Of a stretch of 37,154 nucleotides of DNA, positions 11,738 to 36,126 are shown in pieces. Origin of the DNA: Dysgonamonadaceae bacterium (GTDB lineage: Bacteria; Bacteroidota; Bacteroidia; Bacteroidales; Dysgonomonadaceae). The stretch lies in assembly GCA_031272205.1 (NCBI GenBank), contig JAISUH010000033.1, positions 1 to 37,154 of the forward strand, written 5' to 3'. The notes under the pieces are model-generated. The model made no database searches. It was given only the letters and a program-made list of their open reading frames with translations, and was not told the DNA's origin. Position 1 is the stretch's first letter; every line of letters starts with the position of its first letter. The translations under genes were made by a program, and so were the position numbers.

Positions 11738-12970
11738 ATGAAATACAAACTATTGGCTTTAGACTTGGATGGTACTTTATTGCGAAGCAATAATACCATT
11801 TCGCCTGCAACCTTGAATGCGTTGATTAAAATTCAACACGCAGGGGTTAAGATTGCGATTGTGTCCGGACGTCCTACTTTCGGGTTGAAATATGCGGAGG
11901 ATAAATTGGAAATCGCCAATTACGGCGGTTATTCCATTTCCTATAACGGCAGCCGGATAAAAGATTTGAAGGAAGACGAGCTGATTTTCGACAAAAGGAT
12001 AGATCCGGGTTTGTTCCCCCTGTTGCAAAAGGAAGCCGATAAGCGGGGGCTGACGCTGTTTACTTACGACAGAAACAACATTTACACCAATCATCCCGAT
12101 AACCGGCACGTGCTGAAAGAGGCTGAGATCTGCAATATGGAAGTGGTGAAAATCCGTGATTTTGCCGACGAAATCACTTTTTCGCCTTGCAAATGTATTA
12201 TCGTGAGCGACGATGCCGACGTGATCACCGAAATGGAACGGAAATGGAAAAAACGCTTGGACGGCGTGAGCAACGTGTTCAGTTCCGAACCCTTCTTCCT
12301 CGAATTTGTGCCTCAGCACGTGGACAAAGCCAATACCCTCTCCTTTTTATTGGACCGACTGTCGATAACCCGCGAAGAAGTGGTGGCCATCGGCGACGGG
12401 AACCTCGATTTCAGTATGATTCAATTGGCCGGTTTCGGTATCGCAATGGGCAACGCGAAAGATTCCATCAAATCCTGCGCCGATTGGGTTACCGATACCA
12501 ACGACAACGACGGCGTGGCCAAGGCGATCGCCAAATTGGCGGAGGCCGAGGCGCAACCCTCCCAAATCCCCTTGGAAGTGATGAACGCACAAGCTCAAAA
12601 CACCTTGATGGGCAATCTGGGCATTCGCTACACGTATATCTCCGACAAACAAATTGTGGCGACCATGCCGGTGGACAAACGCACGCGCCAACCCTTCGGG
12701 ATTCTTCACGGAGGCGCTTCGCTCGCGCTGGCCGAAACTATCGCAGGACTGGGGTCGATGGTGCTTTGCGAACCGGGCGATCACGTAGTGGGAATGCAGG
12801 TGAGCGGCAACCACATCTCGTCGGCGCACGAAGGCGATACGGTGCGCGGCGTGGGAACCTTGGTGCATAAAGGACGCTCATCGCACGTCTGGAACGTGGA
12901 TATCTTCACCTCGACCGACAAATTGATTTCTTCAGTCAGGGTTACAAACGGGGTGATAAAAAAGGGATAA
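11738..12970 (+). CDS. Fusion of a HAD-IIB (Cof-type) phosphatase with a MenI-like hotdog thioesterase
   Basis: The 410-residue protein has two enzymes in one chain. Residues 1-270 form a Cof-type HAD phosphatase with motif I LDLDGTLL (nucleophile D9, acid D11) and motif IV GDGNLDFSM (about 217-225). Residues about 284-410 are a hotdog acyl-CoA thioesterase. FGILHGGASLALAET (from about 320) and VVGMQVSGNHISSAHEGDTVRG closely recall E. coli YdiI/MenI, which releases 1,4-dihydroxy-2-naphthoate from its CoA ester in menaquinone synthesis. The start MKYKLLALDLDGTLL is chosen because the Asp motif then sits at the usual position; an in-frame ATG at 11705 overlaps the permease. The ORF-track start at 11510 is too early. 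Menaquinone function is inferred from similarity only. Confidence 0.88.
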   Translation: MKYKLLALDLDGTLLRSNNTISPATLNALIKIQHAGVKIAIVSGRPTFGLKYAEDKLEIANYGGYSISYNGSRIKDLKEDELIFDKRIDPGLFPLLQKEADKRGLTLFTYDRNNIYTNHPDNRHVLKEAEICNMEVVKIRDFADEITFSPCKCIIVSDDADVITEMERKWKKRLDGVSNVFSSEPFFLEFVPQHVDKANTLSFLLDRLSITREEVVAIGDGNLDFSMIQLAGFGIAMGNAKDSIKSCADWVTDTNDNDGVAKAIAKLAEAEAQPSQIPLEVMNAQAQNTLMGNLGIRYTYISDKQIVATMPVDKRTRQPFGILHGGASLALAETIAGLGSMVLCEPGDHVVGMQVSGNHISSAHEGDTVRGVGTLVHKGRSSHVWNVDIFTSTDKLISSVRVTNGVIKKG

Positions 12971-13052: not shown

Positions 13053-13278
13053 CTCCCCCCTGCTTGGCACAGGCTCCCCCCTTGCAGCAGCGCATCGTTA
13101 TCCCTGCTAAGGGATGCATATCAACAGGAAAACCAACGCCCACCCGACACCCAACCGCGTAGCGGGTGCACATTTCTTTATCGGGTGCAACCCCGAACGG
13201 GGTTGAAAGGTCGTTGTTATTCCTTGGTTTCTATTGATATGGATGGCCTGCGGCCAAATTCTTAATACCTGCATCTTC

Positions 13279-13309
13279 AACCTGTTAGGTTTTCAAAACC
13301 TAACAGGTT
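13279..13309. repeat. Perfect 15-bp inverted repeat (AACCTGTTAGGTTTT type)
   Basis: AACCTGTTAGGTTTT, one C, then its exact reverse complement. A near copy with one mismatch occurs at 15828-15864. It could form a cruciform or RNA hairpin. It is not followed by a T tract, so it is not a classical terminator. Confidence 0.8.
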
Positions 13310-13336
13310 TGATTGGGGCGCTTACACATACATTTC

Positions 13337-13472: not shown

Positions 13473-13513
13473 TAAAAAAAAACTGTCCGGAAACGTATAG
13501 CGTCCGGACAGTT
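13473..13513 (-). terminator. Rho-independent terminator of the GH18 remnant gene
   Basis: On the minus strand AACTGTCCGGA and TCCGGACAGTT form a perfect 11-bp stem around an 11-base loop, followed directly by nine T. It lies 22 bp after the stop of the 13535-13966 gene and has the form of a strong intrinsic terminator. Confidence 0.85.
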
Positions 13514-13534: not shown

Positions 13535-13966
13535 TTAATTTCCCAATTCGGTATTGATTTTTTTCATCAGCGACTTTGTTTCGTCGCGACTGTCGCTATC
13601 AACCGACCACAGCGCCATTCCGGCGAGGTTGTTGTTCTTCACAAAGGCTGCTTTTTCCGTTATCGCGGGGAACCCGTCGTAATACAGCCCGTTGTCCGTC
13701 GCCTGAGTATTGACGTTTGGCGCATCCGGATAGGTTGAGCAGATTGTCCTGTACGGGATGTATTCGGTATATTCCCAAAGGTTGCCCCATGTATAATCGG
13801 TAACTACACTGTTCTGAGCGTTTTTTACACTGACAAATGCACTATAAACGGGACTGCCGTCTTCTGCATCGGTAACGGTGCCGCTTATCTGTATATTCTG
13901 CGCAAAAAGCGCATCGACAGCGGTAAACAGCACACAAATCAAACAAACTAATTTTTTCTTGCTCAT
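13535..13966 (-). CDS. Chimeric remnant: TonB-receptor-like N-terminus joined to a GH18 C-terminus
   Basis: The 143-residue product starts with a signal peptide (MSKKKLVCLICVLFTAVDALFAQ) and about 30 residues like the carboxypeptidase-regulatory-like domain that opens SusC-type receptors (ISGTVTDAEDGSPVYSAFVSVKNA). At about residue 55 it changes to sequence like the last 85 residues of a GH18 enzyme, ending NNLAGMALWSVDSDSRDETKSLMKKINTEL. The intact neighbour ends GLGGIMIWELTQDTDDQEKSLLNVIHSEL. There is no DxxDxDxE catalytic motif, so it cannot be a working GH18 enzyme. The simplest reading is a deletion that joined the 5' end of a susC-like gene to the 3' end of a GH18 gene. It follows the GH18 gene by 24 bp and ends at a strong terminator. 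Confidence 0.65.
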   Translation of the reverse strand: MSKKKLVCLICVLFTAVDALFAQNIQISGTVTDAEDGSPVYSAFVSVKNAQNSVVTDYTWGNLWEYTEYIPYRTICSTYPDAPNVNTQATDNGLYYDGFPAITEKAAFVKNNNLAGMALWSVDSDSRDETKSLMKKINTELGN

Positions 13967-13990: not shown

Positions 13991-15022
13991 TTATCTCCAC
14001 AGTTCGCTGTGAATCACATTCAGAAGGCTTTTCTCCTGATCGTCGGTGTCTTGGGTCAGTTCCCAAATCATGATGCCGCCCAATCCGTGTTCTCTGATGT
14101 ATGTCGCTTTTCGAGCCATTGTTACTGTTCCGTCGTAATACGTAAGCCCGACTTGGTCTTTTTTATAGGCTTCCAAATCGGACGACAGAACGATGATGTC
14201 CTTAAAAGCGATGCTTGTTGCGCCCGTGGCATCGCCTTCTTTCAGAAAGGTATATCCGTAAAACGGAACGCCGGCAACCAATTTTTCAAGAGGCAACTTC
14301 CTGTTGTTCAGCCAATGGTCGATCGCTTTTTCGAAAAACGACCATGAAGAATGAGCCCCGGTAGTATTGCCCGACCAGGGGCCTGTCTCGTCATAAATCA
14401 TGATGCTGATAAAATCGAGGTATTGGTGCATGGAGTTGGTGTAGCAGTTGTAAAAACCCCATCCCCCGTCATCGTAGCTGCCGCTTACGGCCGCCGTGAT
14501 GAGTTTATCGGCGCCCAGCGCCGTGCGCAAATCCTTGTACAATTCTTCCAATGCCGCTCGTTTGGGAATGTCTTCTGCGCCAATGCCGCCCTGGCCGCCC
14601 GTCCATTCCTCGTAGTCGAGGTCAATACCGTCCAAATCGTAGTCGCTAACGCATTTTTGAAGGTCATCCCTGAGTTTTTTCCGAAGATCCGGATCGAGCA
14701 GAGCCGTAGTAAAATACTTGGCTTCGCCTCCTCCTCCTACCGATAACAACACCTTGACCCCATGCCCGTGAGCCTGCCCGATGGTGTTGCGAAAACCATC
14801 GAGAATGCTGGCGTTTAATGTCCCCTCCTGCGTTATTGTCCCAAATGCAAGATTCAAATGGGTGATTTTATCCCATTGCGGCGTAAACCCGCTTTTCCAC
14901 GAAGGCAGATATCCTACAACAAACGCTTTTCTACCCGAAGGTTCCAAAGTTTTTAATTTTTCCGTTCCGCATGACGTTAGTAAACAAACTACACAAATTA
15001 GAAAAAAACTCTTTTTTTTCAT
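13991..15022 (-). CDS. GH18 family glycosidase lipoprotein (chitinase or endo-beta-N-acetylglucosaminidase type)
   Basis: The 343-residue protein has a lipoprotein signal ending LLTSC with C18 as the lipidated residue, so it is anchored to a membrane, often the cell surface in Bacteroidota. The GH18 catalytic motif DGIDLDYEEW (131-140) is intact: D131, D134, D136 and the catalytic acid E138. SVGGGG (95-100) and the FISIMIYD block also fit the TIM-barrel family. It should cut beta-1,4-linked N-acetylglucosamine in chitin, peptidoglycan-like glycans or N-glycans; the exact substrate cannot be told. A -7 element lies 25 bp upstream, and a truncated GH18 remnant follows. Confidence 0.9.
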   Translation of the reverse strand: MKKKSFFLICVVCLLTSCGTEKLKTLEPSGRKAFVVGYLPSWKSGFTPQWDKITHLNLAFGTITQEGTLNASILDGFRNTIGQAHGHGVKVLLSVGGGGEAKYFTTALLDPDLRKKLRDDLQKCVSDYDLDGIDLDYEEWTGGQGGIGAEDIPKRAALEELYKDLRTALGADKLITAAVSGSYDDGGWGFYNCYTNSMHQYLDFISIMIYDETGPWSGNTTGAHSSWSFFEKAIDHWLNNRKLPLEKLVAGVPFYGYTFLKEGDATGATSIAFKDIIVLSSDLEAYKKDQVGLTYYDGTVTMARKATYIREHGLGGIMIWELTQDTDDQEKSLLNVIHSELWR

Positions 15023-15046: not shown

Positions 15047-15078
15047 CAAATTTAATTACTTTTTTATATGAAATGCAA
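15047..15078 (-). promoter_or_regulatory. Promoter of the GH18 gene
   Basis: The minus strand reads TTG (15078-15076), a 21-bp spacer, and TAAATTTG (15054-15047), an exact -7 match. The predicted leader is about 20 nt before the ATG at 15022. Confidence 0.45.
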
Positions 15079-15463
15079 CGAATGGGATATTATTTTATGA
15101 TTTATTGTTTTTTAACTATTCAAACATCTTCTTTGTGTTGTTTGCAAGCCGCCACAAGCGGCGAAGCAATCCGGCATGGAAGCACGAAAGTGCGGCTTAG
15201 TTGGTAGTTTATAGTTCTTAGTTCTTAGTTCTTAGTCTTTAGTTCTTCGGGGTGAAGCAACCCGGAAAAAAAATGAGGTTTTCCCTTTCATGCCTTTGTG
15301 GTTCATATTTCGCTTTTTGGCGCGAAGGCGCAAAGCCCCAAAGAAATCGATGGATTTAGACCCTTATCTATCAAAATCACCCTTAGTAGCCCAAGGCCAC
15401 ACACCCCCGCTCAGCTTATTTTTCTGATAAATAATGGAATAAGGGAGAAAATGGGGGGGAGTT

Positions 15464-15519
15464 GAGAATTGAGAATTAAGAATTAAGAATTAAGAATTAA
15501 GAATTAAGAATTAAGAGTT
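15464..15519. repeat. Heptamer array GAGAATT/AAGAATT, 8 units
   Basis: Two GAGAATT units, five AAGAATT units and one AAGAGTT follow without interruption. Similar arrays occur at 22334, 27047, 27312 and 30680. Confidence 0.9.
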
Positions 15520-15590
15520 GGGAAGGTAGAAGGAGCGAAAGAGGGTGTCTTAGTGGGTAGTTTATAGTTTATAGTTCTTGGGGGCAGCTA

Positions 15591-15623: not shown

Positions 15624-15827
15624 TTTTAAAAAAAGTGATGCAAGTGTCGTCGATTGTAGAGACGCGGCATGCCACGTCTCTACTGCCAATGCAACCCCAT
15701 ACGGGGTTGAACGGCATTTATACGCTTGTTTTCTATTGATATGGATGACCTGCGGCCAAGAACCTTCCTCAAAATTCCCTTAGTAGCCCAAGGCGCCACC
15801 CACCGCCCATACCTTATTTTTATGTCA

Positions 15828-15864
15828 TTAAACCTGTTAGGTTTTTTAAATCTAACAGGTTTAA
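15828..15864. repeat. 17-bp inverted repeat, second copy of the AACCTGTTAGGTTT type
   Basis: TTAAACCTGTTAGGTTT, loop TTT, AAATCTAACAGGTTTAA: one position would be a G-T pair in RNA. It lies 40 bp past the GH127 stop and may act as that gene's transcription end. Confidence 0.75.
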
Positions 15865-15903
15865 TAACAGGTTATTGACATGTTGTCTGTCCGCAGGTAA
15901 CGC

Positions 15904-22616: not shown

Positions 22617-22922
22617 TCAAAATATCATTGAGTATTCAATACGGCAGCCTAAAGCATTCATAATTCGATAGAATGTTGAAATTTTAGGTTCTGTCTGACC
22701 ATGTTCCACTTTTGATATGTAAGAACGGTCAGAACCTATTCTCCTTGCTAATTCCGCTTGAGTGATTTTAGCCCTTTTTCTAGCATCTTCAATAATTTGA
22801 CCGGTATAGAACGCATAAGCCTTTTCTTCTGCATCCATCCGGCTTTCTGTTCCTTTTGCTCCGAAGCGTTCTTCAATGAGTGCACTTACATTGAAATAAT
22901 CATTATTTTCCTTTGCTATCAT
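22617..22922 (-). CDS. HigA-type antitoxin, XRE-family HTH protein
   Basis: The 101-residue protein has an XRE-type helix-turn-helix from about 45 to 95: ARKRAKITQAELARRIGSDRSYISKVEHGQTEPKISTFYRIMNALG. It should bind DNA and the upstream-encoded toxin, silencing both. The first 45 residues are acidic and have no recognised domain. Its start overlaps the toxin stop by 20 bp, typical of coupled translation in higBA modules where the toxin comes first. The pair sits between two direct copies of a MITE-like element. Confidence 0.85.
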   Translation of the reverse strand: MIAKENNDYFNVSALIEERFGAKGTESRMDAEEKAYAFYTGQIIEDARKRAKITQAELARRIGSDRSYISKVEHGQTEPKISTFYRIMNALGCRIEYSMIF

Positions 22923-23235
22923 AATATTCTTTTTTTAATTTTTTTGCTTTTTCTATTTCCGAAACGGGCGTTTTCTGTGTTTTTTTTTGAAATCCATTGA
23001 ATAGTATAACGATATATCCCTTATCAAAACAGAAAAAAATACGATATATATTACCCTCATATTCAATTCTCAATTCATATAAACCATCCTCTATTATCCG
23101 CATAAATTTTAAAGGCATTCGATCTTGTGTTTCCAATAACATAAGTATGTACAAAATTTTATTTTGTACTCCTTCATCCAAGCTGTCGAAAAACTCTTTA
23201 AAGTAATTTTTATATGAAATAATAGTCCTCTCCAT
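22903..23235 (-). CDS. HigB/Gp49-like toxin of the RelE superfamily
   Basis: The 110-residue protein fits the phage Gp49-like/HigB family: a central LYELRIEYEGNIYRIFFCFDKGYIVILFNGFQKKTQKTP segment and a basic C-terminus (EIEKAKKLKKEYY). Members are ribosome-dependent mRNA endonucleases that slow growth when the antitoxin is lost. Catalytic residues vary in this family and cannot be fixed by eye, but no truncation is evident. The ATG lies only four bases after a perfect -7 element, so the mRNA may have almost no leader. Confidence 0.83.
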   Translation of the reverse strand: MERTIISYKNYFKEFFDSLDEGVQNKILYILMLLETQDRMPLKFMRIIEDGLYELRIEYEGNIYRIFFCFDKGYIVILFNGFQKKTQKTPVSEIEKAKKLKKEYYDSKGK

Positions 23236-23834: not shown

Positions 23835-26252
23835 TTACTTGTTGCGGGCATCCCAGGCGGTGGACTGCTCGAGCACGTAGTACAGCGCATTCATCTCCAT
23901 CTTGGCATTGTCGCTCAGTGGAACGCCTGTGTTGCTGTATCGAGCCGGGTCGCTGCTGGAGTGGCTTGCCGATGCGTTTTTGGCAATCACAAGGATACCG
24001 CCTTTCGATACCGGATTTTGGCAGGAGAAAATCACCGGTTTGCTCCCCCCGCTCCCGTTCCCGTAGGATGCGATGGTTTCGCAGACCAAAGGCAGGTTAT
24101 TAACGCCTACTAAATAATGGCGCGATGTTATTATTGCAGGCCCATTTCCGGTGTAAGTGATGCTCGAAATCGTTCCGAAAGGCCCGCTCTTTAGAGCAGT
24201 GGCTGCAGTGCCTGTGCCGGTCAACGATATCGACGATGGGTTTCTATCATTAGCACTGCCGTCGAGTTGATTGGATGTTATTGTTCCCCAAGTCGTGCTC
24301 CAGCCTGAAGCTGTGCCCACAGCGGTCATCACCTTTCCCAAATCCTCTTCTCGGTTACCCAAGGCTGAAGAATATTTGGTGGTATAGAGAATCCAGCTGC
24401 CGCCGTTTATCAACGCTTTCAGCGCCGGAGCAATATTAGCGTTGTAATCCTCGGTAGCATACACCATTACGTTGGGGTTGGGGGTGCCGGGATTGGTACA
24501 CACCGCCGAAATTTGCGCTGCATCGCTACCGTTATTGGCCCGCAAGTCGAAGCCGCCGTTATAGATCTGTCCTTCGGTATAGGGTATCCACCGGGTTTTT
24601 ACCGTGCCCGAAGGCCCGAAGTTGACCGAACCGGTAACGCTTGATCCGCTAAATCCACCGATAATGGCTTCTGAACGGGTACTCTGGACGGGCGTGCCTA
24701 AGAAACCGTTGGGCCCCCACGCCTGTTCGTCAACCGGGCCGCTGTTGTCGGCAAAGAGGATGCGCACGGCGCCCAAGCCGTATGGTATGGCCACGCACTG
24801 CGTCAAGTCCGTTGGAGTTGTAATCGAAAATCCGCTAGCGCTCAGCGTAAGAGGTATATCGTTCCCGTTTTCGCTCACGGAGGTAGAGATCTCGTCGCCA
24901 GCAGTGTGATGGAGGACTATAGTAGTGGTGTTGGAATGGCCGGCAGCAATCGAACCGGTTGTGCCCGTAAAGGTAACCGTGCCATGCGCCGCGTTTGTGA
25001 GGGTTGCCGTAATAGTGCCGCTGATAGCGCTACTACCACCATTGTAAAGTCCGCCGGGTTCTATCTCAACGGTTTGGCCGTTGAGGGTGCGTGCCGTGCT
25101 GCGGAGTATCTTTCCGTTGTTCCAGAACTTAACCAAATCGCAGTCTAATATAACTGAGCCCGCTGCTCTGAATTTTACGGTTAGCGTATATTTTGTACCG
25201 GTCAACAGCGGCCCTTGGAAACGTATGGTGCCAAGGGAAACGTCTTTATGTGCGCCGGTACCGCTATGTCTAACTGTTATCGGAGCGCTGAACGTTACGT
25301 CTATATTCGAAGCGCCGCCCGTAAATATGGGGCGTCCGCCATATTCGCTTTCGGTTGCTATCTGATCACTGCTGCTCATTGTCCATTGCCGAGCTACCGC
25401 ATTTGCGTTAATGGTTGTTATAGTGGGAGGCCCGTTAACCGCAAAGGTTTGCATCCCGGCCTTATTGGGGTCAACCGTATAGGTAAACCCTGAGGGTATA
25501 GTTAATGTATAACCCGGTATGCTGGTTATATCGATGATGTTTTGTACGTGCGTAAACTGATGATGGAAAGTGAGAGTCAGCGCCTTCGCATCCGGATAGA
25601 CGGACTGATGACCGTACCCCCAGATCTGTACGGTATCGGTAACAGCATAGAGAAAATCCCAGCCGGGATCGAGCGTATAGGTGTTGGGGGACGTATCTAA
25701 CTCGCGTCCGTCGGGATCCTGAGAGTCGCTGGTGGAATAGGCTACTGCCCTGACATAATAGTCGGCACTCGTCGGATCGTTGCTCCACCATGGTACCATC
25801 AACCGCACATCACTATCACCGACTGTCCTCAGAAAAGACTGATTAGTCCCGGAGGTGCCTGTTACATTGCCGGCATTTGTCCGTTTGCTGAAATCCGCAT
25901 TAAAAAGGATAGCTCGGTATTTCAAGTCGCTGCCCATTGGATGAACGGCGGCGCGTGTAGCCGCCGCGGGTTCGGGGGCTAAGGTACACTCAACAACGAA
26001 GCCCTCGTCTGTTGTTACGGCAACGGTTTGGGGTTCTATCTGTGCGCGGGTTATACCCTCGTAAAAGTCAGATACACCGGCCACCTTAAGCACTAATCCG
26101 ACGCCCGACGAGTTTTCGTCGCTGTCGCCGTTATTCAGCTTGTCGTCGCAGGCGGGAAACGAAGTTGCCATCGAGCCGATAAGGCAGTATGCCAATAAGC
26201 GACCGGTGCAGTGCCGGAAGCTTTTTCTTTTTATTATCGTTTTGACGTCCAT
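23835..26252 (-). CDS. Fimbrillin-like surface lipoprotein with an unusual C-terminal half
   Basis: The 805-residue protein has a basic N-terminus, a hydrophobic stretch and a lipobox-like end SFPAC with C35 as lipidation site. Residues about 50-250 look like a fimbrillin-family N-domain (GITRAQIEPQTVAV, TRAAVHPMGSDLKYRAILFNADF). The middle (about 250-480) is rich in Thr, Gly, Ser and beta-strands. The last 300 residues differ: NVMVYATEDYNANIAPALKALINGGSWILYTTKYS and GGILVIAKNASASHSS...MNALYYVLEQ have an alternating strand/helix pattern like class I glutamine-amidotransferase-like folds. I infer a cell-surface protein, perhaps a tip adhesin or pilus-related. Family assignment is from general appearance. 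A strong terminator follows; a 68-residue gene precedes it on the same strand. Confidence 0.7.
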   Translation of the reverse strand: MDVKTIIKRKSFRHCTGRLLAYCLIGSMATSFPACDDKLNNGDSDENSSGVGLVLKVAGVSDFYEGITRAQIEPQTVAVTTDEGFVVECTLAPEPAAATRAAVHPMGSDLKYRAILFNADFSKRTNAGNVTGTSGTNQSFLRTVGDSDVRLMVPWWSNDPTSADYYVRAVAYSTSDSQDPDGRELDTSPNTYTLDPGWDFLYAVTDTVQIWGYGHQSVYPDAKALTLTFHHQFTHVQNIIDITSIPGYTLTIPSGFTYTVDPNKAGMQTFAVNGPPTITTINANAVARQWTMSSSDQIATESEYGGRPIFTGGASNIDVTFSAPITVRHSGTGAHKDVSLGTIRFQGPLLTGTKYTLTVKFRAAGSVILDCDLVKFWNNGKILRSTARTLNGQTVEIEPGGLYNGGSSAISGTITATLTNAAHGTVTFTGTTGSIAAGHSNTTTIVLHHTAGDEISTSVSENGNDIPLTLSASGFSITTPTDLTQCVAIPYGLGAVRILFADNSGPVDEQAWGPNGFLGTPVQSTRSEAIIGGFSGSSVTGSVNFGPSGTVKTRWIPYTEGQIYNGGFDLRANNGSDAAQISAVCTNPGTPNPNVMVYATEDYNANIAPALKALINGGSWILYTTKYSSALGNREEDLGKVMTAVGTASGWSTTWGTITSNQLDGSANDRNPSSISLTGTGTAATALKSGPFGTISSITYTGNGPAIITSRHYLVGVNNLPLVCETIASYGNGSGGSKPVIFSCQNPVSKGGILVIAKNASASHSSSDPARYSNTGVPLSDNAKMEMNALYYVLEQSTAWDARNK

Positions 26253-33815: not shown

Positions 33816-35984
33816 TTACAAAAATCCTTCTTTTTCGAGCAAGGCAGCCGCTTCGATGAGCATGCAGCCGCTAATCTGTCCGCGGAGGAAGGAATCGTGA
33901 GGTTTGAAATACCATCCGTAATTGTAGATCAGAATGTTGCTGTCGGTTGTTGCGCTCGCATAAGTGATCAGCGCCTTGGCATTGTACTCGATAAATTTCC
34001 TGAACGTTTCTTTTTTATCCGGCGGCAGATCGGGGTGCATGGCCAATCGGGCGAAATATCGGATAAAGATGCCTTTAAAGAGGTTCACATCGTGATCCTG
34101 CTGTTCGGCCCAGTCGCTCAATATCCGGTTGTTTTCGGCTTTGACCGACAGATTTTCCAGCGTCCAGTCGGCCGTTCGTATGGCATCTTCCAAATAGTGG
34201 TTTTCGCCCGTTACGTCGTACAATTCCATGGCTGCGCCAAGAAAGGTGCCGGTATTGTATGTCCACGCGCCCGATTTGTTTGCGAAATCATCATAAACGG
34301 CTCCGGTTGCGGGGTCGTGCCTCTTTTCCCTCATCCATTCGTACATTTTTTTTGCCCAGTCCAAGTCGTTCAGTCCTCCGTTTGTTTCGGTATTCCCGTA
34401 TTTAACCCATCGACGAACGGCAATGATGGTTGCCGGGCCGGTAGAGGGCACGCCGGGGGTGCTGTTGGCATCGGTATTCCATTTGATACCCCCGTTCACG
34501 TTGTCCCATCCTTCTAATATCCAGTTCCATAAATCGCGGGCAGAGTTTTCGTAACGCGAATCGTTGGTGGCTTCGAAAGCCCGCAGATGAGCCAAGCCGT
34601 GCCAGGCCATATCATCGTAATAAGCGTTTTTGAATGTGCCGCCGTTTTTCGCTTTTACGCCTTCGTAGAAGTCGTAAATAACCTGCTGATACTTGCTGTC
34701 GTTGGTTCTCAAATAGGCGTCGATAACGACGTCGAGCGCGTGCGCTTCGGGCCAGTAATCATAAGGGTTGACTGTTCCGGTGAGGCTGTTATTGAAGTGT
34801 TTTTTGCTCGTATTCCAATAGCCGACGACAAAATCGGACGAGCTTTGGTTTGCGATATTCGCCCACGATGAGCCTGCAGCGCTAAAATCTTCGGTAGTAA
34901 CCTTAAAATCATGCGAATACTTCGACATGTCCACCGAAACTTCCACCCATCGGTCTTTCAAATTGTCGGCATAACCCCACACCCCGTTCCACAGCTGGTC
35001 GCCTTGATTGGTGATCACGCTTTCTTTCATCGAAAAGGATCCTCCGTCGGATTTTTCCAAAAACTTGTCCACACCCCCTTCGGTCATTTTAAATTTATAG
35101 CGTTTCTCGTCCCCCCACGATTCTTTCGAAAAAGAGATGAGACAGACGTCTTTCCATATTCCCCGACCTTCGTATTCGAGCTTCATCGCTCTCGATCGGA
35201 TGGCGTAAAACAGCGAAATATCGGTAACTTCTTTCATCACGACCGAGCCGGAAGAGAAATTGACGCGAATGCTGTAAACGCCGCTTTTTGTAACTTGAGC
35301 TTCCGAGCCGTCTTCAACCAATTTGCCGTCTTTTACCGAGAAAGAGCGTATATTACTCCCTTCGATATTGTTTGTAAACTTGAAAGGCTGTCCGGCCGTC
35401 AGTTTTGAATAGATGACAAATTCGGCGTCCGAAATTTTTGTAAATCCCATAGCGTCCGAAAGATTCTCTCCAAACTCGCTCCCCCGGCCGGTTAAAAACA
35501 ATTTGGCAATGTCTTCTTGCGCGAAAGGACGTTTAATGACCAATCGGAACGTTTCCTTCGACATGACCTTGGTCGCTTCGTGGTAGGCCTGCACAGCCCA
35601 GCACAATACGCCGGTACTGCCGGTGCTGATACCCGCCTTGGCGGCGATTTCGTTCAGCAGGTTGTAGGTGATGTAGGCGCTGTTTTTCGTGGTTTCGACC
35701 GTATATGCCGGATTGGAGGCAGACCCGTTTTCTCCAAAAAACTTGATTTCGTACTTCGGGGTTATGCCGTTATTGGCCGTGGCTTTCTCCCATTCGAAAA
35801 GAAGGTTGAGTTGCATATTTTCCGAAAATTCGATCTCCTTGTTGTTGGCCGGAGAAATCAGTCGTGCCACAGCATTGATGACGAGAAGATCCTCTGTCTG
35901 GGTCGGGTTTTCAACCGGGTCGGAACACGACGAAAGGATGCCCGTTATAGCAAATGAAAACAGGAAATAAACAATTTTTTTCAT
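33816..35984 (-). CDS. SusE-like / GH76 fusion lipoprotein (alpha-1,6-mannanase type)
   Basis: I start at MKKIVYFLFSFAITGILSSC (35984), which gives a clean lipoprotein signal with C20; the track's start adds 11 residues. Residues about 25-150 resemble the SusE N-domain (LISPANNKEIEFSENMQLNLLFEWEKA), and about 150-370 resemble SusE/SusF glycan-binding modules. The C-terminal half (about 400-722) is a GH76 (alpha/alpha)6 barrel with the catalytic Asp pair in NAYYDDMAWHG (D457, D458). GH76 enzymes cut alpha-1,6-mannan backbones, as in yeast or mycobacterial mannans. A surface lipoprotein that both binds and cuts is implied. It is the first gene of the trio with Gfo/Idh/MocA and DUF1080. Confidence 0.85.
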   Translation of the reverse strand: MKKIVYFLFSFAITGILSSCSDPVENPTQTEDLLVINAVARLISPANNKEIEFSENMQLNLLFEWEKATANNGITPKYEIKFFGENGSASNPAYTVETTKNSAYITYNLLNEIAAKAGISTGSTGVLCWAVQAYHEATKVMSKETFRLVIKRPFAQEDIAKLFLTGRGSEFGENLSDAMGFTKISDAEFVIYSKLTAGQPFKFTNNIEGSNIRSFSVKDGKLVEDGSEAQVTKSGVYSIRVNFSSGSVVMKEVTDISLFYAIRSRAMKLEYEGRGIWKDVCLISFSKESWGDEKRYKFKMTEGGVDKFLEKSDGGSFSMKESVITNQGDQLWNGVWGYADNLKDRWVEVSVDMSKYSHDFKVTTEDFSAAGSSWANIANQSSSDFVVGYWNTSKKHFNNSLTGTVNPYDYWPEAHALDVVIDAYLRTNDSKYQQVIYDFYEGVKAKNGGTFKNAYYDDMAWHGLAHLRAFEATNDSRYENSARDLWNWILEGWDNVNGGIKWNTDANSTPGVPSTGPATIIAVRRWVKYGNTETNGGLNDLDWAKKMYEWMREKRHDPATGAVYDDFANKSGAWTYNTGTFLGAAMELYDVTGENHYLEDAIRTADWTLENLSVKAENNRILSDWAEQQDHDVNLFKGIFIRYFARLAMHPDLPPDKKETFRKFIEYNAKALITYASATTDSNILIYNYGWYFKPHDSFLRGQISGCMLIEAAALLEKEGFL

Positions 35985-36126
35985 GACGTTCAATTTTTCA
36001 GTTCGTAAAAGTAGCAATTATTTTTCAGAAAGACCGAATGTTCCGTGAAAAACAGATGCTTTTCTTTTTCAGCATGTTCAGGCTGTTTGCGAAATTTTGA
36101 TTTTTCGTAATTCATGTATTTATTTT

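Follow-up and report, generated by a model that had tools for sequence, protein, structure and literature searches.

An open reading frame of 143 codons on the reverse strand of a Dysgonamonadaceae contig is very probably a scar left when a single deletion removed about 5.7 kb from a polysaccharide-utilisation operon of the order susC-susD-GH18a(-GH18b). The frame lies in a stretch of 37,154 nucleotides, here called the window. The basis of the deletion reading is that the parent operon is intact in relatives, and that the two halves of the frame map, in order, to its first and third genes. An earlier sequence-only reading had described the frame as a SusC-like N-terminus passing into a GH18 C-terminus and had proposed that the halves be aligned separately; matches of both halves confirm the description. 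The frame and its surroundings comprise the following features.

13535 to 13966, reverse strand: chimeric open reading frame (P0001, 143 aa), SusC N-terminus in frame with the GH18a C-terminus.
13796 to 13966, reverse strand: SusC-derived part, codons 1-57, 57% identical to residues 3-56 of the parent-locus SusC.
13535 to 13795, reverse strand: GH18a-derived part, the last 86 codons and the stop, 72-78% identical to the GH18a ends of the eight closest loci.
13796 to 13804, reverse strand: putative deletion junction GTTACCGAT, for which an intact relative has GTTACGGAT in SusC and GTTTCCGAT in GH18a.
13474 to 13513 (approximate), reverse strand: intrinsic terminator, an 11-bp GC-rich stem and then a T-run, 21 bases past the chimera's stop codon.
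13991 to 15022, reverse strand: intact GH18b gene (P0002, 343 aa) with a lipoprotein-type signal and the catalytic motif DGIDLDYE.
15047 to 15079, reverse strand: possible Bacteroidota-type promoter, GTTG-N21-TAAATTTG, upstream of GH18b, weak and near chance level in the window.

The SusC-derived codons encode an export signal peptide (approximately residues 1-22) and the first third of a CarboxypepD_reg domain. Residues 4-57 of the chimera align to the SusC of the closest intact locus (L138, in genome G125) with E = 5e-18, and residues 1-62 matched a SusC homologue in a PDB search (E = 1.5e-7). Residues 55-143 align to residues 363-451 of GH18a from the same locus at 78% identity (E = 3e-51). 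Both Pfam matches to the chimera fall below cut-off and are partial, CarboxypepD_reg being matched at profile positions 1-35 of 82 (or 1-31 of 88) and Glyco_hydro_18 at positions 240-317 of 317. The chimera is accordingly a member of neither parent family. A SusC/RagA protein has a signal peptide followed by a complete CarboxypepD_reg-like domain, which is only partial here, and the plug domain and beta-barrel are absent from the 143 residues, the plug being present in the intact relative's SusC. From the (beta/alpha)8 barrel of a GH18 protein the end alone is retained, corresponding to three short strands and four helices in a model of GH18a, and the region of the DGxDxDxE motif is deleted. 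AlphaFold2 gave the chimera no confident fold (mean pLDDT 41), a result for which the shallow alignment lacking SusC rows is partly responsible.

Other donors for the two halves fit less well. The intact GH18 gene noticed next to the chimera in the sequence-only reading is indeed there, but it is a different gene, GH18b, and as a source of the chimera's tail it can be rejected, matching at 36% over 47 residues against 78% for GH18a. An unrelated SusC is an unlikely donor of the first half, since the parent-operon SusC is the top match among the 14-27 matching N-termini per genome in G125, G128, G130 and G131; in G127 and G008 the parent-locus SusC is not the best match.

The parent operon itself was traced by scanning 84,980 species genomes with the tail at close-relative sensitivity. 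This search returned eight close relatives, every alignment starting at residue 55 or 57 of the chimera; seven belong to complete GH18a frames, each about 450 aa long, and the eighth to a GH18a fragment where its contig ends. More distant copies (51-57% identity) occur in two genomes of the window's own family. As the sequence-only reading had anticipated, a complete locus exists in relatives: the order susC-susD-GH18a-GH18b is conserved in seven assemblies (G125 to G130 and G008), the contigs of G126 and G129 carrying the upstream genes in part only. Of the remaining assemblies, a short contig of G132 carries the end of GH18a and GH18b, in G131 susC-susD-GH18a lie together and GH18b is on a separate contig, and G013 has GH18a without an adjacent GH18b. 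The closest intact locus belongs to the Dysgonamonadaceae MAG Md513_bin73 (JAISUK010000031.1), and it and the other six hold homologues of the intact GH18b and of the genes from which the chimera's halves derive. Whereas loci of the Md513_bin73 type are intact, the window lacks susC, susD and GH18a save for two ends, and has GH18b on the opposite side. The 143-residue architecture was absent from 101 genomes of the family, from the 84,980 species genomes at close-relative sensitivity and from plasmids. A conserved family of small secreted proteins, which would have told against a deletion, is thus rejected, as no relative has the same architecture, and the deletion reading stands.

At the junction, the window reads GTT ACC GAT TAT ACA, where the SusC of G125 has GTT ACG GAT AGC and its GH18a GTT TCC GAT TAT ACC. 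Immediately before the switch the two G125 genes agree at 7 of 9 bases. Among random in-frame junctions of the G125 locus, 0.3% match 7 of 9 bases at the exact position and 2.5% do so when a 9-base slide is allowed, which is consistent with a deletion between short near-repeats but no proof of it. Such a deletion would have removed most of susC, all of susD and most of GH18a and joined the ends in frame, and we infer that it proceeded between the near-repeats of about 9 bp by replication slippage or end-joining. The missing stretch, as measured in G125, is 5,710 bp. Orthologues of the lost SusC body, SusD and the N-terminal part of GH18a were not found in the window's genome assembly (101 contigs, about 2.3 Mb, 83% complete, 3% contamination); its paralogues of these parts reach at most 51% identity over part of the length for SusC and at most 40% for SusD. 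Relocation of the lost parts by inversion or a shufflon is rejected on the same absence of orthologous pieces. Despite the 83% completeness, a true deletion is the plain reading because the ends are joined.

A counterpoint to the deletion reading is that the frame is still open, as the sequence-only reading had noted, and decay is not visible. At all 27 positions where the other ten copies are invariant the tail is unchanged, and it lies as far from outgroups as the intact G125 copy does, indicating no faster evolution than in intact copies; dN/dS of the tail is uninformative, as synonymous sites are saturated. The absence of decay can mean that the deletion is recent or that selection has continued. 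Since the tail is a barrel end that has lost the rest of the barrel, a recent event is the likelier of the two, and on these sequence comparisons the deletion was probably recent.

The surroundings suggest what may become of the scar. GH18b, upstream of the chimera, ends 24 bases before it starts. The strong terminator that had been proposed to close the chimera holds up: a 101-nt stretch folds at -28.1 kcal/mol (z = -6.6). If functional, the candidate promoter could possibly drive GH18b and the chimera jointly. Transcripts of GH18b probably still run on through the scar as far as the terminator. The SusC signal peptide would take the product to the periplasm, exported rather than lipoprotein-anchored, where, lacking both the full regulatory domain and the (beta/alpha)8 barrel, it would probably be degraded. 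GH18b remains intact with its catalytic residues kept; having lost SusC, SusD and the GH18-like protein, the locus would be predicted to keep hydrolysis and lose dedicated uptake. Also upstream of GH18b, between genes, is a tandem 7-bp repeat, GAATTAA, in about 8 copies (15459-15521).

One arrangement in the window does not follow from the deletion. GH18b follows GH18a in every relative with both on one contig; in the window it stands ahead of what is left of susC. Because GH18b sits opposite to the side on which a simple deletion would have left it, a single deletion is insufficient for the gene order observed, and on this comparison a second rearrangement is needed. The earlier proposal of a deletion across a susC...GH18 locus therefore survives in its core, with an intact parent operon and both halves mapped in frame, but not as a single event. 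That GH18b does move follows from G131, where it is detached from GH18a.

A possible, though on balance doubtful, variant traces the chimera to recombination within operon copies that were tandem or permuted; the loss of the segment and the upstream position of GH18b would then belong to one compound history. This would explain why GH18b comes before the susC start here and after GH18a elsewhere, and on either side of the module lie dispersed repeats that share one orientation (13186-13313 and 15690-15865). Against this, neither flank of the module shows traces of a second susC, susD or GH18a, none of six relatives has a GH18b remnant upstream of susC in the 0.4 to 3.8 kb available for each, and one of the repeats is so widespread that its presence here may be chance. 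That repeat, TTTCTATTGATATGGATGNCCTGCGGCC, occurs at 13223-13257, at 15725-15759 and at 20 more sites, 22 copies in 2.3 Mb, a reversed control pattern giving 0 copies in the same 2.3 Mb. Palindromic AACCTGTTAGGTTTT and CAACCCC-GGGGTTG repeats lie beside its copies here.

The same-genus genome G037 has no GH18b match at E <= 1e-20, and its contig stops 335 bases past a gene that in the window (11738-12970, forward strand) encodes a Cof-type HAD phosphatase fused to a hotdog thioesterase. The fusion gene is 91% identical in G037, and six other genomes gave no match to it at E <= 1e-40; the GH127 side was not found in the roughly 1.0 of 2.4 Mb of G037 that was read.

The sequence-only reading had left a choice between plain debris and a new role such as glycan binding. 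Debris is the part that stands: the chimera is most likely a gene remnant without a function of its own, and we found nothing supporting a new role. It is improbable that the chimera now serves as a small secreted protein with its own role, glycan binding for example, translated together with GH18b. The open frame, the retained export signal, the short distance behind GH18b, the terminator directly after it and a tail with no excess of changes would all suit such a protein; but the chimera is in no other genome, consists of a third of a regulatory domain and pieces of a barrel end, and has no confident predicted fold, and the conservation of its tail is inherited from GH18a, making selection after the deletion unnecessary. 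Slightly less probable again is a gene newly born from the ends of the lost operon, the in-frame stump being kept as a small periplasmic protein made with GH18b. There is similarly little chance that the junction was created by misassembly or by a chimeric contig in the metagenome bin, as a fragmented assembly and a gene order unlike that of all relatives might suggest, given that the stretch shared at the junction is at most 9 bp, far under usual assembly k-mers, that the join is in frame at homologous-looking bases, that the spacing of GH18b and chimera is typical of neighbouring genes, and that the remainder of either parent gene is missing from the bin.

In-frame deletion fusions and gene remnants occur in bacteria generally. 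The deletion scar resembles these in that two gene ends are joined at a short near-repeat with the frame kept, and differs from them in the particular genes alone; literature searches on bacterial deletion fusions and SusC pseudogenes found no paper on a SusC::GH18 scar. It is an ordinary gene-loss remnant whose ancestry is unusually clear. It would give a clear view of the loss of a polysaccharide-utilisation locus from a Bacteroidota genome, the transporter, its lipoprotein partner and a GH18-like protein going in one step while the catalytic GH18 stays, and it warns annotators that a frame with two real domain hits and a signal peptide may still be debris.

The GH18 parent differs from what was first supposed. 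The chimera's tail had been read as the last 85 residues of a GH18 enzyme; it is a GH18 end, of 86 residues, but GH18a is not an evident enzyme. GH18b proteins carry DG[IV]D[LIF]D[YF]E, and the DGIDLDYE of the window's GH18b conforms to the catalytic motif DGxDxDxE, whereas GH18a proteins carry DGIN[IV]YMD and lack the catalytic Glu in all nine copies that hold the motif (DGINxYMD in place of DGxDxDxE). Judged by this motif, the chimera's GH18 half derives from a pseudoenzyme and not from an active one. The GH18a protein combines a lipoprotein-type N-terminus with a PKD-like domain (PF16820) and a GH18 domain, and its model (mean pLDDT 79) matches chitinase-type GH18 structures, including the pseudo-chitinase YKL-39. 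Proteins of the GH18a type may be glycan-binding surface proteins.

In Bacteroides thetaiotaomicron PUL16, the catalytically impaired GH18-like protein BT1284 adjoins the active BT1285 (PMC11180146). The likeness is that the gene of a motif-less GH18-like protein stands beside an active GH18 in a SusC/SusD locus (PMC11180146). The two differ in that BT1284-type proteins carry DUF1735 and GH18a the PKD-like domain, and in that sequence and fold searches with GH18a point to chitinase-type GH18 structures. The conserved GH18-like pseudoenzyme and an active-looking GH18 recur in SusC/SusD operons at L138:6008-7363, L034:1719-3065, L039:3915-5261 and other loci. This parent family, a conserved operon pairing a motif-less GH18-like lipoprotein with an active-looking GH18, is perhaps more interesting than the scar.

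GH18b of the window (P0002) is 66% identical to GH18b of the G125 locus. Its closest solved relative by sequence is FjChiB (6xyz, E = 2e-39), which belongs to a chitin utilisation locus of Flavobacterium johnsoniae with SusC/SusD (PMC7426924). Both proteins belong to a SusC/SusD locus (GH18b doing so in relatives), although the relationship is distant. Since FjChiB of a chitin utilisation locus is the closest relative, chitin or N-glycans are plausible substrates of GH18b.

Elsewhere in the window, on the reverse strand, an 805-aa lipoprotein-like frame (23835-26252) has no Pfam match at E <= 0.001, overlapping genes for a Gp49/HigB-like protein and an HTH regulator resemble a toxin-antitoxin pair (22617-23235), and one protein combines a SusE-like domain with a GH76 domain (33816-36017).
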